NCBI RefSeq assembly: GCF_028613635.1
Contig: NZ_JAQRMY010000001.1
Location: 972,331-1,036,330, forward strand
Origin: Devosia sp. ZB163
GTDB taxonomy: Bacteria > Pseudomonadota > Alphaproteobacteria > Rhizobiales > Devosiaceae
DNA length: 64,000 bases
Direction: 5' to 3'
Shown here: positions 48,653 to 52,529 of the stretch, piece after piece
How positions within the stretch are numbered: position 1 is the first letter of the stretch
How the letters are laid out: every line of letters starts with the position of its first letter
The notes under the pieces: generated by a model
Databases searched by the model: none
Told to the model about the DNA's origin: nothing
The model's input: the letters and a program-made list of their open reading frames with translations, nothing else
Position numbers and translations under genes: made by a program

Positions 48653-50107
48653 TCAAACCCCGCTCTGCGGAATGCCAGTGCGCTCGATCTTGCGCGGAGC
48701 CGTGATTTCCTTCCACTGGCTCAGTGCCCGGTTCACAGGGTTCTTGGCCTCGCGCGCGACGAATTCGCCATGCCCGGGCTCATTCGACACCGTCCCCTCG
48801 GTCACCGCAACCTTGCCGCGGGTCAGCGTGAAGCGCGGCAGGCCCGTCACCTCGATTCCCTCGAACACGTTGTAGTCGATGATCGATTGCTGCGTCTTGG
48901 CCGCGATGGTCTTCTTCCGCTTGGGATCCCAGACCACGATGTCCGCATCGGCCCCGACGAGGATCGCGCCCTTCCTGGGGTACATGTTGAGGATCTTGGC
49001 GATGTTGGTCGAGGTCACCGCCACGAATTCGTTCGGCGTGAGCCGGCCGGTATTGACGCCCTTCGTCCACAGCACCGGCATCCGGTCCTCGAGCCCGCCC
49101 GTGCCGTTCGGGATCTTGGCGAAGTTGCCGATGCCCGTGCGCTTCTGCTCGGTGGTGAAGGCGCAATGGTCGGTCGCCACCACCTGCAGCGAGCCCGAAG
49201 CGAGCCCGGCCCATAGCGAATCCTGATGCTGCTTGTTGCGGAATGGCGGGCTCATCACCCGGCGCGCCGCATAGTCCCAGTCCTTGTTGAAATACTCGGT
49301 CTCGTCGAGCACGAGATGCTGGATCAGCGGCTCGCCATAGACGCGCATCCCCTTGCTCCGCGCCCGGCGGATCGCCTCATGCGCCTGCTCGCACGAGGTG
49401 TGCACGATATAGACAGGCACCCCCGCCATGTCGGCGATCATGATCGCCCGGTTGGTCGCCTCGCCCTCCACCTCGGGCGGCCGCGAATAGGCATGCGCCT
49501 CCGGCCCGTTGTTGCCGGCGTCGAGCAGCTTCTGCGTCATAGTCGCGACCACGTCGCCATTCTCGGCATGCACGAGGGGCAGGGCGCCGAGGTCCGCGCA
49601 GCGCTGGAACGAGGCGAACATCTCGTCGTCGTTCACCATCAGCGCGCCCTTGTAGGCCATGAAGTGCTTGAACGAGGTGATGCCGCGATCGACGACCTCG
49701 GCCATCTCGTTGAACACCTGCTCGCCCCACCATGTGATCGCCATGTGGAACGAGTAGTCGCACGATGCCTTGGAGGTCTTGTTGTCCCACATCTGCAGCG
49801 CTTCGAGCAGCGACTGGTTGGGGTTCGGCAGGCAGAAATCCACCACCATCGTGGTGCCCCCGCTCAGCGCCGCCCGCGTCCCGCTCTCGAAATCGTCGGT
49901 CGAGTAGGTCCCCATGAACGGCATCTCGAGATGCGTATGCGGATCGATCCCGCCCGGCATCACATAGCAGCCCGAGGCATCGAGGATTTCTCCCCCCGTC
50001 AGGTTCTGCCCGATCTCGGTGATCTTCCCGTCCTCGATACGGACATCGGCCGCATAGGTGAGATCGGCGGTAACGACGGTGCCGTTCTTGATGATTTTGC
50101 TGGTCAT
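48653..50107 (-). CDS. hydA: Dihydropyrimidinase (D-hydantoinase)
   Basis: 484-residue amidohydrolase that opens dihydrouracil or dihydrothymine to the N-carbamoyl-beta-amino acid. Binuclear metal ligands: His57 and His59 in GGIDPHTHLEM, the carboxylated Lys in SFKHFMAYKG, His in LPLVHAENGD and VYIVHTSCEQAH, and Asp in VATDHCAFT. C-terminal TRGKVAVTEG is usual for the family. ATG 50107 overlaps the stop of the DUF559 gene by four bases. An 11-base direct repeat (GTCATTCGAGT) at 50103 and 50120 overlaps the start codon. It lies between the M20 hydrolase and the importer in one operon. Confidence 0.95.
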   Translation of the reverse strand: MTSKIIKNGTVVTADLTYAADVRIEDGKITEIGQNLTGGEILDASGCYVMPGGIDPHTHLEMPFMGTYSTDDFESGTRAALSGGTTMVVDFCLPNPNQSLLEALQMWDNKTSKASCDYSFHMAITWWGEQVFNEMAEVVDRGITSFKHFMAYKGALMVNDDEMFASFQRCADLGALPLVHAENGDVVATMTQKLLDAGNNGPEAHAYSRPPEVEGEATNRAIMIADMAGVPVYIVHTSCEQAHEAIRRARSKGMRVYGEPLIQHLVLDETEYFNKDWDYAARRVMSPPFRNKQHQDSLWAGLASGSLQVVATDHCAFTTEQKRTGIGNFAKIPNGTGGLEDRMPVLWTKGVNTGRLTPNEFVAVTSTNIAKILNMYPRKGAILVGADADIVVWDPKRKKTIAAKTQQSIIDYNVFEGIEVTGLPRFTLTRGKVAVTEGTVSNEPGHGEFVAREAKNPVNRALSQWKEITAPRKIERTGIPQSGV

Positions 50108-50550
50108 TCGAGTTCCCCTGTCATTCGAGTGTGCCCCCGGGCCACCTCTCCCTTGGGGGAGAGGTCGGATTTCGCGAAGCGAAGTCCGGGTGAGGGGGCC
50201 TTCTCCAGCCTGTCGGCGATAACCTGCAGCACGCCGTCGATGTTCGTCAGAACGTCTGAGTTCCAGAAGCGCACGACTCGATAGCCATGCTGGCTCAGCA
50301 CTTCGGTCCGCCCCGCGTCTGCTAGGACACCGTCAGCGGTGCCATGCTGCCCGCCATCGAGTTCCACGATCAAGTCGCGTTCGCGGCAGGCGAAGTCGAC
50401 GACGTACGAACCCACCGGCTGCTGGCGCACGAACTTGCAGCCCAGCAGCTGTCTATCCCGCAGTCGGTACCAGAGCTTGCGCTCGGCATCCGTCGAGTTT
50501 TCCCTGAGGGAACGGGCACGCGCGACGAACCTGCTCTTGAGCGTCCCCAT
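50104..50550 (-). CDS. DUF559 (Vsr/restriction-endonuclease-like) protein 1, inside repeat element
   Basis: 148 residues of DUF559, a small PD-(D/E)XK/Vsr-like nuclease fold. Conserved positions: TDAERKLWYRLRDRQL, VGSYVVDFACRERDLIVELD with Asp and Glu as likely metal ligands, GGQH, and VVRFWNSDVLTNIDGVL. The C-terminal 25 residues (PSPGLRFAKSDLSPKGEVAR) are the translation of a repeat arm. ATG 50550 lies two bases from the other repeat arm. The gene splits hydA from the M20 hydrolase gene and runs in operon direction. No partner methylase or helicase is nearby. Function is unknown; a role in the spread or maintenance of the repeats is my inference. Confidence 0.85.
   Translation of the reverse strand: MGTLKSRFVARARSLRENSTDAERKLWYRLRDRQLLGCKFVRQQPVGSYVVDFACRERDLIVELDGGQHGTADGVLADAGRTEVLSQHGYRVVRFWNSDVLTNIDGVLQVIADRLEKAPSPGLRFAKSDLSPKGEVARGHTRMTGELE
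50143..50200. repeat. Right arm of REPIN-like repeat, 3' side of DUF559 gene 1
   Basis: 58 bases: CACCTCTCCCTTGGGGGAGA, GGTCGG, a GCGAAGC-type stem, then CCGGGTGAGGGGGCC. The outer parts are nearly identical to 50631-50685. It encodes the DUF559 C-terminus on the minus strand. Confidence 0.9.
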
Positions 50551-50552
50551 AA

Positions 50553-50685
50553 GGCCCCCTCACCCGGCGCTACGCGCCGACCTCTCCCCCAAGGGAGAGG
50601 TGGAGCCGCGGCACGATCTGGCCCTCCCGTCACCTCTCCCTTGGGGGAGAGGTCGGATCGCGTGAGCGATCCGGGTGAGGGGGCC
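50553..50685. repeat. Complete REPIN-like element, 5' side of DUF559 gene 1
   Basis: Left arm 50553-50602 (GGCCCCCTCACCCGG ... CCGACCTCTCCCCCAAGGGA, GAGGTG), spacer of exactly 28 bases containing GCGGCACGA, and right arm 50631-50685 (inverted copy). Outer ends are GGCCCCCTCACC and GGTGAGGGGGCC. Confidence 0.9.
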
Positions 50686-50711
50686 TTTCGTTGATTGGGT
50701 GGAAACTAACC

Positions 50712-51962
50712 TCACCCCACGATCTCCGCCGTCTCCAGCACCGCGCGCAGCAGCACATCCGTCCCCGCCGCGGCCCATTCCTTCGAAATCTCTTCCGCCT
50801 CGTTGTGGCTCAGTCCATCCACGCACGGGCACATGATCATCGCCGACGGCGCCACGCGGTTGATCCAGCACGCGTCATGCCCCGCCCCCGAGACGATATC
50901 GCGATACGAGTACCCCAGCTCCTTCGCCGCGGCCCGAACATTTCCCACCAGCGTTTTGTCAAATGTCACCGGGTCGAAATGCCCGACCTGCTCGACCTCG
51001 AAGCCGATATCCAGCCCCTCGGCGATATTCTCGATGCCGTAGCGGATGCGCTCGTCCATCTCGTCGAGCACCTCCTTGTTCGGTGAGCGGATATCGATCG
51101 TGAACACCGCCTTGCCGGCGATGATGTTGCGCGAGTTCGGGTAGACCTGGATGTGCCCCACCGCGCCGACGGCATCGGGCTGGTAGTCCATCGCCACCTC
51201 GTGCACCAGCTCGATCACCCGTGCCATGCCGAGGCTGGCATTGCGCCGCTTCGGCATCGGAGTGGAGCCGGTATGGGCCTCCTTGCCGGTCAGCGTCACC
51301 TGCAGCCACTTGAGCCCCTGGCCGTGCGTCACCACGCCGATATCGATGCCCTCGTCCTCGAGGATCGGCCCCTGCTCGATATGGAGCTCGTAATACGCGT
51401 GAATCTTCCGCGCCCCGACCACCTCGTCGCCGCGCCAGCCGATCCGCTCCAGCTCCTCGCCGAACGTCTTCCCGTCCTTGTCCTTGTGCGTATAGACGTC
51501 GGCCTGATCCAGCACCCCGGCGAATACGCCGGATGCCATCATCGCCGGCGCAAACCGCGCCCCTTCCTCATTGGTCCAGTTCACCACCACGATCGGGCGC
51601 TTGGTCCGGATGTCGAGGTCGTTGAGCGTCCGGATCACCTCGAGCCCGCCCAGCACCCCGAGCACCCCGTCATAGCGTCCGCCGGTCGGCTGCGTGTCGA
51701 GATGGCTGCCGACATAAACCGGATCGAGCCCCGGCTCGGTGCCCTCGCGCCGCGCGAACATGGTGCCCATCTGGTCGAGCCCCATCTCCATCCCGGCCGC
51801 CTCGCACCACCGCTTGAACAGCGCCCGGCCCTTGGCATCGTCATCCGTCACCGTCTGCCGATTGCTGCCGCCCGCAACCCCCGGACCGATCTCGGCCAGT
51901 TCGTGAATGGAGCTCCAAAGGCGCTCGGGGTCGATACGGAGGTTTTCGCCAGGAGCTGCCAT
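50712..51962 (-). CDS. hydC: M20-type Zn hydrolase, probable N-carbamoyl-beta-alanine amidohydrolase (beta-ureidopropionase)
   Basis: 416 residues of the allantoate/N-carbamoyl-amino-acid amidohydrolase subfamily. Metal-site motifs: VGSHLDTQPTGGRYDGVLG, WTNEEGARFAPAMMASGVF, LELHIEQGP-like ELHIEQGPILEDEG, and GAGHDACWINRVAP. The subfamily includes HydC/AmaB and bacterial beta-ureidopropionase, which hydrolyse N-carbamoyl-beta-alanine to beta-alanine, CO2 and ammonia. Position between dihydropyrimidinase and MmsA genes supports that role over allantoate. It is flanked on both sides by repeat-packaged DUF559 genes. The symbol hydC is used in the rhizobial sense; amaB is an alternative. Confidence 0.9.
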   Translation of the reverse strand: MAAPGENLRIDPERLWSSIHELAEIGPGVAGGSNRQTVTDDDAKGRALFKRWCEAAGMEMGLDQMGTMFARREGTEPGLDPVYVGSHLDTQPTGGRYDGVLGVLGGLEVIRTLNDLDIRTKRPIVVVNWTNEEGARFAPAMMASGVFAGVLDQADVYTHKDKDGKTFGEELERIGWRGDEVVGARKIHAYYELHIEQGPILEDEGIDIGVVTHGQGLKWLQVTLTGKEAHTGSTPMPKRRNASLGMARVIELVHEVAMDYQPDAVGAVGHIQVYPNSRNIIAGKAVFTIDIRSPNKEVLDEMDERIRYGIENIAEGLDIGFEVEQVGHFDPVTFDKTLVGNVRAAAKELGYSYRDIVSGAGHDACWINRVAPSAMIMCPCVDGLSHNEAEEISKEWAAAGTDVLLRAVLETAEIVG

Positions 51963-51965
51963 AGG

Positions 51966-52400
51966 TCAGTCTTTCTGTGAGGTCGCAGTCAGGTCCCCTC
52001 GCCCCTCTGGGGAGAGGGTGGCTGGCGCAAAGCGCCAGTCGGGTGAGGGGCAGTTGCGCAAGGTCAGGAGCAGCGCCTGCAGAACGCCGTCAGTATTGTC
52101 GAGGACTTCATTGTTCCAGAAGCGGAGTACCGAAAAGCCCTGTTCGTTCAGGTAGCGCGTTCGGCGCGCGTCGTTCGCCGATACCGAATGCTGGCCGCCA
52201 TCCACTTCCACAACAAGCATTGCATCGCGGCACACGAAGTCAGCAAAGTATGGGCCGATCGCGTACTGACGGACGAACTTGAACCCTTCCAGCCGACGGT
52301 CGCGCACACGGGACCACAGGCGCGACTCGGCATCAGTCGGTTGGGCCCTTAGCCCTCGCGCCCGCTTCCGAATCTCTGGGTCCCCGTGGCTGCCCCTCAC
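51966..52400 (-). CDS. DUF559 (Vsr/restriction-endonuclease-like) protein 2, inside repeat element
   Basis: About 144 residues from GTG 52400; the frame is open back to ATG 52526, but those extra residues (PLTPALSPEGRGG...) are translated repeat. The core matches DUF559 protein 1: PTDAESRLWSRVRDRRLEGF, GPYFADFVCRDAMLVVEVDG, GQH, LRFWNNEVLDNTDGVLQAL. The C-terminus PSPDWRFAPATLSPEGRGDL again reads through a repeat arm. The stop is three bases before the hydC ATG. The proposed GTG lies within the flanking repeat arm, so repeat and gene are physically interlocked. Function is unknown. Confidence 0.82.
   Translation of the reverse strand: MRGSHGDPEIRKRARGLRAQPTDAESRLWSRVRDRRLEGFKFVRQYAIGPYFADFVCRDAMLVVEVDGGQHSVSANDARRTRYLNEQGFSVLRFWNNEVLDNTDGVLQALLLTLRNCPSPDWRFAPATLSPEGRGDLTATSQKD
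51995..52051. repeat. Right arm of REPIN-like repeat (second subfamily), 3' side of DUF559 gene 2
   Basis: 57 bases: CCCCTCGCCCCTCTGGGGAG, AGGGTGGC, a TGGCGCAAAGCGCCA stem, then GTCGGGTGAGGGGC. Same position relative to its DUF559 gene as 50143-50200. Confidence 0.88.
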
Positions 52401-52497
52401 CCTGACCCTCTCCCCGGCGGGGAGAGGGGACGCGCCTTGCACTGCCGGTGCCCCATCGCCCCCTCTCCCCTCTGGGGAGAGGGCCGGGGTGAGGGGC
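52392..52497. repeat. Complete REPIN-like element (second subfamily), 5' side of DUF559 gene 2
   Basis: Left arm 52392-52430 (GCCCCTCACCCTGACCCTCT, CCCCGGCGGGGAGAGGGGA), spacer of exactly 28 bases, right arm 52459-52497 (CCCCCTCTCCCCTCTGGGGA, GAGGGCCGGGGTGAGGGGC). Confidence 0.88.
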
Positions 52498-52529
52498 AGA
52501 CCAGCAATGCCAGCGCTTATCCGCATCGC

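Follow-up and report, generated by a model that had tools for sequence, protein, structure and literature searches.

Within a 64,000-nucleotide stretch of the Devosia sp. ZB163 genome (contig NZ_JAQRMY010000001.1, positions 972,331 to 1,036,330 of the forward strand; herein referred to as the window, and numbered from its first letter), a small gene encoding a protein of the DUF559 family lies between inverted palindromic repeats, which we call arms:

50104-50550, minus strand: DUF559 (PF04480) gene, a PD-(D/E)XK/Vsr-like nuclease; open reading frame (ORF) of 148 aa, assigned by profile match
50143-50202, plus strand: arm on the 3' side of the gene (hairpin at 50144-50165, small hairpin, tail)
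50551-50687, no strand: complete two-arm element on the 5' side of the gene (tail'-hairpin'-30 nt spacer-hairpin-tail)
50580-50601, no strand: palindromic hairpin ACCTCTCCCCCAAGGGAGAGGT, left half of the two-arm element
50632-50653, no strand: palindromic hairpin ACCTCTCCCTTGGGGGAGAGGT, right half of the two-arm element
50551-50567 and 50671-50687: tails of the two-arm element

The original prediction had placed a DUF559 gene between palindromic arms, with its start next to one arm and its C-terminus encoded by the other, and re-reading the sequence confirmed both the positions of the arms and this layout. The start codon (at 50550) directly abuts the arm that begins at 50551, and the 3'-side arm, which is inverted relative to the 5' arm, encodes the C-terminus ('APSPG...LSPKGEVARGH') and carries a tail (CCGGGTGAGGGGGCCTT, 50186-50202) directed toward the gene; the ORF ends in a 4-nt overlap with the ATG of the next gene. 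Across the 4.59 Mb genome, the palindrome CCTCTCCCNNNNGGGAGAGG is found at 14 sites, three of them at this gene, and its reversed control pattern at none, which excludes a chance origin of the window palindromes. The layout of the two-arm element also recurs at gene-less loci of the same genome.

The encoded protein belongs to PF04480 (residues 9-115, E-value 3.2e-38, 130.4 bits against a curated cut-off of 20.6). At E of 0.001 or below, the DUF559 proteins of the window match PF04480 and MTES_1575 only; PF03852 (Vsr) has no match among them at that threshold and none in the genome. A profile built from 19 DUF559 domains detects 3hrl, an endonuclease-like protein of Neisseria, and 3r3p, the homing endonuclease I-Bth0305I (3.8e-5), and a Foldseek search with an AlphaFold2 model (pLDDT 90) returns 3hrl and I-Bth0305I as nearest (for I-Bth0305I, E 1e-4 and TM-score 0.68-0.74), followed by PvuRts1I, mitoribosomal proteins and Escherichia coli Vsr (E 0.02); solved-structure matches above E 0.02 were rejected as chance. 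A glutamate, an ExDGxxH motif and an aspartate, the acidic and histidine residues of the putative active site, are invariant across the 19 domains and may have the catalytic roles predicted for them. The Vsr/PD-(D/E)XK-like enzyme of the original prediction is thus supported at the level of the Vsr/EDxHD fold, and DUF559 is probably a nicking nuclease of this fold. Matches to Y1_Tnp (PF01797), the RAYT/REPIN enzyme, number zero in the genome, which rules out RAYT mobilisation there. The ratio of nonsynonymous to synonymous substitution rates (dN/dS) of the window gene is 0.07-0.21 (five orthologues, ten pairs, with dS partly saturated), and the gene is therefore under purifying selection. E. 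coli YcjD has likewise been placed among PD-(D/E)XK proteins, with a profile that detects Vsr (PMC1189080).

Paired arms around DUF559 genes

The pairing score (inverted-repeat score, IR score) is that of the best local alignment obtained when the 250 nt that follow the DUF559 domain are reverse-complemented and aligned with the 250 nt that precede it; scores were compared with those of control windows that were cut regardless of genes, many of which will be coding. Within the genus Devosia, where 34 of 76 profile matches were examined, 22 of the 34 loci have an IR score of at least 40, against none of 64 control windows from the same loci. Across phyla, a score of at least 36 was reached by 54 of 77 loci (80 minus three excluded at contig ends), compared with 2 of 541 control windows, in a set fetched by two peptide patterns of one subfamily and hence more biased than the Pfam-profile sets (genus and Pseudomonadota); these loci include records of Chloroflexi, Gastranaerophilales/Melainabacteria, Legionella, Rokubacteria and Nitrospira as well as AT-rich hosts, and one locus (L010 = L056) is common to the genus and cross-phylum sets. 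A survey of 120 Pseudomonadota genomes, in which 62 of 100 profile matches were examined (the six genes of our genome and weak, truncated and edge matches were omitted), gave the same picture: 37 of the 62 loci score at least 36 against 1 of 122 controls, hairpins of at least 8 bp stand on at least one side of 57 loci against 21 controls, and on both sides of 38 loci against one control. The association between DUF559 genes and arms is real and general; in all three sets the majority of the genes carry arms, and the original prediction is upheld in this respect. In one of the 22 Devosia loci, L022, a contig end beside the gene carries a perfect fold-back of 76 bp (1786-1940), an artefact or a real palindrome, and the arm there may be an assembly artefact.

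The partly coding nature of the control windows is met by gene-flank controls, for which we compared 60 of the Pseudomonadota DUF559 loci (after dropping one pseudogene fragment and one weak match) with 30 cold-shock (CSD) genes and 29 PF03852 Vsr genes (30 fetched, one omitted by the edge rule). IR scores of at least 36 were found at 36 of the 60 DUF559 loci and at none of the cold-shock or Vsr genes; a hairpin stands on at least one side of 56 DUF559, 14 cold-shock and 5 Vsr loci, and on both sides of 37, two and none, respectively. These counts bear on the notion that the hairpins are ordinary transcription terminators, or GC-rich palindromes that surround a small gene by chance. Many of them are indeed intergenic, GC-rich stem-loops, and the 14 cold-shock loci too have a hairpin on one side or the other; however, paired inverted flanks and hairpins on both sides set DUF559 apart, the same motif occurs in AT-rich hosts, the tail faces the gene, and PIT elements had neither promoter nor terminator activity in work cited by PMC4666352. 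We consider this explanation very improbable, contradicted as it is by both the control windows and the gene-flank controls.

The window's own genome has six DUF559 genes, every one of them with inverted arms on both sides (scores 39-131) and each with a separate arm sequence. A second DUF559 gene lies in the window itself:

51966-52526, minus strand: second DUF559 gene (domain about 52059-52373), with an arm family that differs from that of the first gene
51993-52054, plus strand: 3'-side arm of the second gene, with an imperfect hairpin, a small hairpin and the tail GGGTGAGGGG
52394-52495, no strand: 5'-side two-arm element of the second gene, of triplex-motif type (52394-52428 minus, 52461-52495 plus)

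The arms of this second gene are of the canonical BoxC/triplex-motif (TM) type. Eight minus/plus arm pairs with a spacing of 67-68 nt occur in the genome, one of which adjoins the second gene; dispersed inverted pairs of hairpin repeats at fixed spacing, a hallmark of RAYT/REPIN systems, are therefore present here, and the dispersed gene-less two-arm copies have constant spacing and spacers that look alike by eye. The two DUF559 genes of the window are 1.4 kb apart and bracket a single metabolic gene (ORF 50712-51962).

Arm structure and gene-specific arms

The arms follow a common plan, a pyrimidine-loop-purine hairpin with a gene-side tail that mirrors the purine strand. These are the two features of the BoxC/PIT/TM class, and to judge from their sequence the arms are, or closely resemble, these orphan intrastrand triplex repeats. 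Pyrimidine-loop-purine hairpins make up 319 of 395 flanking hairpins (one is purine-first and 75 are mixed), a count that says nothing about orientation because a perfect hairpin reads alike on both strands. The tail reads as the mirror of the purine strand, as a rule with a T in place of one A, and tail and stem covary, as in the purine-strand/tail pairs GGGAGAGGG/GGGTGAGGG, GGGAGAAGG/GGATGAGGG, GGGGGAGGG/GGGTGGGGG and GGGGGAAGG/GGATGGGGG. Across 292 asymmetric stems, a mirror tail fits better than a direct one in 139 and worse in 38, with 115 ties (p 1e-14; p-values for the mirror tail, the arm pairing and Mantel tests and the side of the tail are nominal, since loci and arms are related). 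A mirror tail is what a third strand requires, and one strand could therefore fold into an intrastrand triplex. When 221 innermost hairpins were examined for such a third strand (A or T allowed on A), the gene side gave the better match for 178 of them and the outer side for 31, the other 12 being ties; perfect matches number 111 on the gene side and 24 on the outer side, and the stem-tail distance is most often 3 nt (59 of the 111 perfect gene-side matches).

For the E. coli motif, the isolated strand forms a stable triplex in vitro, and the in vivo data of the same paper do not support a stable triplex in vivo (PMC4666352). No mobility genes are described near the repeats in that paper, the word 'nuclease' does not occur in its text, and its authors state that remnants of transposases or integrases were never found near E. 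coli BoxC copies.

In the arms of the first window gene a small hairpin stands between stem and tail, and the mirror is mismatched at one end. The REP (repetitive extragenic palindrome) sequences of RAYT/REPIN systems are described as having a GTAG- or CGTC-type end; the window arm is nearer the BoxC/PIT triplex motif than a RAYT-type REP because of its small hairpin and its gene-pointing GGGTGAGGG tail. Of the term 'REPIN-like' in the original prediction, the two-arm layout therefore stands, but the arms appear to belong to the BoxC/PIT/triplex class rather than to RAYT-type REP sequences. The Rfam family whalefall-1 RNA matches 50142-50197, 50556-50603 and 50630-50682 with 20-27 bits, below its gathering threshold of 37, and such matches recurred in one of 16 further sources; we do not use them as support, and part of what this RNA family covers might be a DNA repeat of the arm class.

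Arms are specific to their genes. Where three or more DUF559 loci of a genome were examined, 28 of 38 genes have upstream and downstream arms that pair with a score of at least 36, a score that 25 of 160 cross pairs reach, and for 24 of the 28 genes their own pair is the best in the genome (5.5 expected). Similarity of proteins and similarity of arms are weakly correlated over 108 loci (Mantel r 0.19, p at most 0.0005). The two partners also co-occur: among the 120 Pseudomonadota genomes, 27 have the strict motif, 29 a strong DUF559 match (over 40 bits), 18 both and 82 neither (odds ratio (OR) 14.9, p 5e-8), and the association holds when collapsed to 44 families (OR 21, p 3.9e-5) and under within-family permutation (p 0.0035). 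In the same genomes Y1_Tnp has no association with the motif (OR 1.2, p 0.82; family-collapsed OR 1.6, p 0.55). Within 19 Devosia genomes, the number of DUF559 genes (two weak matches left out) correlates with that of window-type arms (rho 0.73, p 0.0004, not corrected for phylogeny), and the two genomes without DUF559 have no window-type arm. The original prediction tied the repeats to the gene, and their presence and number do follow DUF559, not Y1_Tnp.

Gene and arms at shared sites

In the window, the first DUF559 gene lies between ORFs 50712-51962 and 48653-50107, which by resemblance we call hyuC and hydA. The hyuC-hydA gap is readable in 17 of 18 Devosia genomes with the orthologous neighbour (a contig end cuts the remaining one). 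All six gaps with a DUF559 gene carry arm hairpins of at least 8 bp, on both sides in four, against none of the 11 gaps without the gene, some of which hold other sequence; these counts give no sign that gene and repeats arrived separately. With the cut-off lowered to 7 bp, two of the 11 gene-free gaps show one pyrimidine-purine hairpin, of which that of L217 resembles an arm and could be an arm remnant. The neighbour protein of one gene-free genome (G005) is 97% identical to that of the window. In six genomes (L214, L215, L219, L224, L226 and L227) a gap of about 330-690 nt has neither DUF559 nor hairpins of at least 8 bp, and other small ORFs seem to be present; small genes may insert recurrently at this gap.

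Gene and arms also form a unit of homology amid unrelated sequence. Four pairs of loci (L031/L032, L040/L078, L068/L114 and L074/L087) have the gene and both arms in common (461-576 nt, 72-74% identity) with no other significant match outside, and three (L106/L114, L132/L159 and L139/L159) have the gene and the upstream arm in common (390-424 nt, 80-84%) between unrelated flanks; similarity drops near the outer hairpin edge (six of seven pairs profiled, L132/L159 excluded). Outside the hairpins of L031/L032 is a further short inverted repeat (CAGTCGG...CCGACTG), which may mark the true element ends.

A gene-less two-arm element has a clean alternative allele in E. coli, where the arm pair between hrpB and mrcB is absent from three fetched strains, with about 12 other bases in its place, and where an allele about 103 nt shorter is found in 13 of 39 evenly sampled E. 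coli chromosome rows. At the same site L208 (E. coli O111:H8) has a deletion that runs from one hairpin loop to the other, and a single hairpin remains.

E. coli K-12 holds both partners, ycjD and BoxC, and is a test case though without an upstream arm. Its annotated DUF559 gene ycjD (1351407-1351760; 3365 of the 5426 complete genomes of E. coli have it) is followed, 168 bp past its end, by TMECO no. 9, a BoxC copy of PMC4666352 (1351205-1351239), and the last ycjD codons run into an apparent decayed arm; on the upstream side no BoxC-type arm was seen in K-12. An empty ycjD site with a clean junction was not found among four fetched strains without ycjD, which have an efflux operon beside sapF or fabI. 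The sapF-fabI site (L115/L116, L118-L121) has ycjD with BoxC arms and the efflux operon, reported there in PMC12817139, as alternative occupants.

A further possibility is that DUF559 is a host repair nuclease, acting in Vsr-like mismatch repair or in resolving folded DNA, around which the arms are regulatory or incidental. The fold similarity to Vsr and the purifying selection on the window gene would suit such a role, as would genetic data on Caulobacter VsrA, which carries DUF559 and is needed for the SOS response in cells without a cytosine methylase (PMC12907096). However, none of the 29 PF03852 Vsr genes has such arms, genomes hold several DUF559 genes, each with a separate arm family, DUF559 presence is patchy among close relatives, and gene and arms form one homology unit, and we judge a repair role of this kind to be quite unlikely.

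A candidate nuclease-repeat system and known elements

The reading that we favor, and consider fairly probable, joins the DUF559 gene to its cognate triplex-forming arms in a single nuclease-repeat system, either selfish or semi-domesticated, and recognition of the folded arms by DUF559 is its most economical form. Recognition, cutting, the route of copying and transposition by DUF559 are steps that we infer from sequence. An arm that becomes single-stranded at the replication fork would fold into an intrastrand triplex, DUF559 would recognise the folded arm and cut beside the fold, and repair would then place a copy of whatever lies between two folded arms at a new site. Copies with two arms but no gene would be moved in trans, like miniature inverted-repeat transposable elements (MITEs) or REPINs, and gene-bearing units (0.4-0.6 kb) would move more rarely. 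The broader proposition is that of a new class of element, mobile or semi-domesticated and spread over many bacterial phyla, whose Vsr-fold nuclease would recognise intrastrand DNA triplexes at the ends of the element itself; it seems to us evenly balanced.

Several observations weigh against a nuclease-repeat system. About 30-40 percent of DUF559 loci fall below the paired-arm threshold in the genus, cross-phylum and Pseudomonadota sets; five of the 62 Pseudomonadota loci have no hairpin of at least 8 bp on either side, though two of the five score 89 and 113. In the paired test, two loci of E. coli and one of Klebsiella score only 20 each and do not pass; one of the three has a long upstream palindrome of another type, similar to one 3' of sapF in a strain without ycjD. 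Two of the six gene-bearing hyuC-hydA gaps have hairpins only on the 3' side, the same-genome pair L139/L159 has only the upstream arm in common, and most homologous Devosia pairs have long flanks in common, as orthologues that persist vertically. Inspection by eye of L031/L032 and of the hrpB-mrcB site in E. coli recognised no target-site duplication. Of the 29 Pseudomonadota genomes with DUF559, 11 lack a strict-pattern repeat (several carry variant arms), and three DUF559-bearing Devosia genomes have no window-type arm. Finally, PMC12907096 connects VsrA with DNA damage that depends on methylation and proposes a mismatch-repair function for the enzyme.

A point of the same kind, that nine of the 27 repeat-bearing Pseudomonadota genomes have no strong DUF559 match (two of the nine have a weak one), leads to a different division of labor, in which the repeats owe their spread to something else and DUF559, as a homing-type parasite, inserts into or targets them. 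That the nearest fold is the homing nuclease I-Bth0305I and that the ORF abuts the arm exactly are consistent with such a parasite. However, arms fit their own gene better than others of the same genome (24 of 28), no gene-free orthologous gap retains arm hairpins of at least 8 bp (0 of 11), and Y1_Tnp, the obvious alternative mobiliser, lacks association with the repeats; we regard the parasite as unlikely and retain the nuclease-repeat system.

BoxC/PIT repeats were noticed in the 1990s and have hitherto had neither a function nor a partner enzyme, and DUF559 is widespread with no agreed function. Our results suggest that the DUF559 enzyme spreads or maintains the BoxC/PIT repeat family. With this link, enzyme and repeats each acquire a role that can be tested, RAYT/REPIN gains a counterpart with unrelated chemistry, and triplex-forming DNA may have a natural use; among the matches listed in open-licence PMC papers, none ties DUF559 to BoxC/PIT/triplex repeats. 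If the broader proposition of a new class of element is true, units of 0.4-0.6 kb would be very small self-encoded elements, the origin of the orphan BoxC/PIT repeats would be explained, and a cellular enzyme would have a natural triplex substrate.

Known systems share parts of this arrangement. MITEs and insertion sequences (IS) likewise combine short gene-less and longer gene-bearing copies with inverted ends, but DUF559 units have no known transposase and no recognised target duplication. I-Bth0305I (3r3p) is the closest solved fold of known function, yet no intron or intein is seen at the DUF559 locus, which is bounded by repeats instead. Vsr and Caulobacter VsrA are of the same fold class, and VsrA contains DUF559, whereas PF03852 Vsr genes are without arms. 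The motif of the BoxC/PIT/TM repeats (CCCTCTCCC-loop-GGGAGAGGG-NNN-GGGTGAGGG) is that of many DUF559 arms, those on the 5' side of the second window gene among them; the differences are the small hairpin in the arms of the first window gene and the enzyme family that is tied to the repeats here, PMC4666352 having reported no mobility genes nearby. RAYT/REPIN systems also place one nuclease gene among cognate inverted hairpin repeats, with gene-less two-arm copies at fixed spacing elsewhere, but their enzyme is an HUH Y1 nuclease and that of the DUF559 units has a PD-(D/E)XK/Vsr fold in a genome without Y1_Tnp, DUF559 arms carry a mirror tail, and DUF559 genes are several and diverse per genome. 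The DUF559 layout works like RAYT/REPIN but, because the test for a Y1 enzyme fails, is not a member of it.

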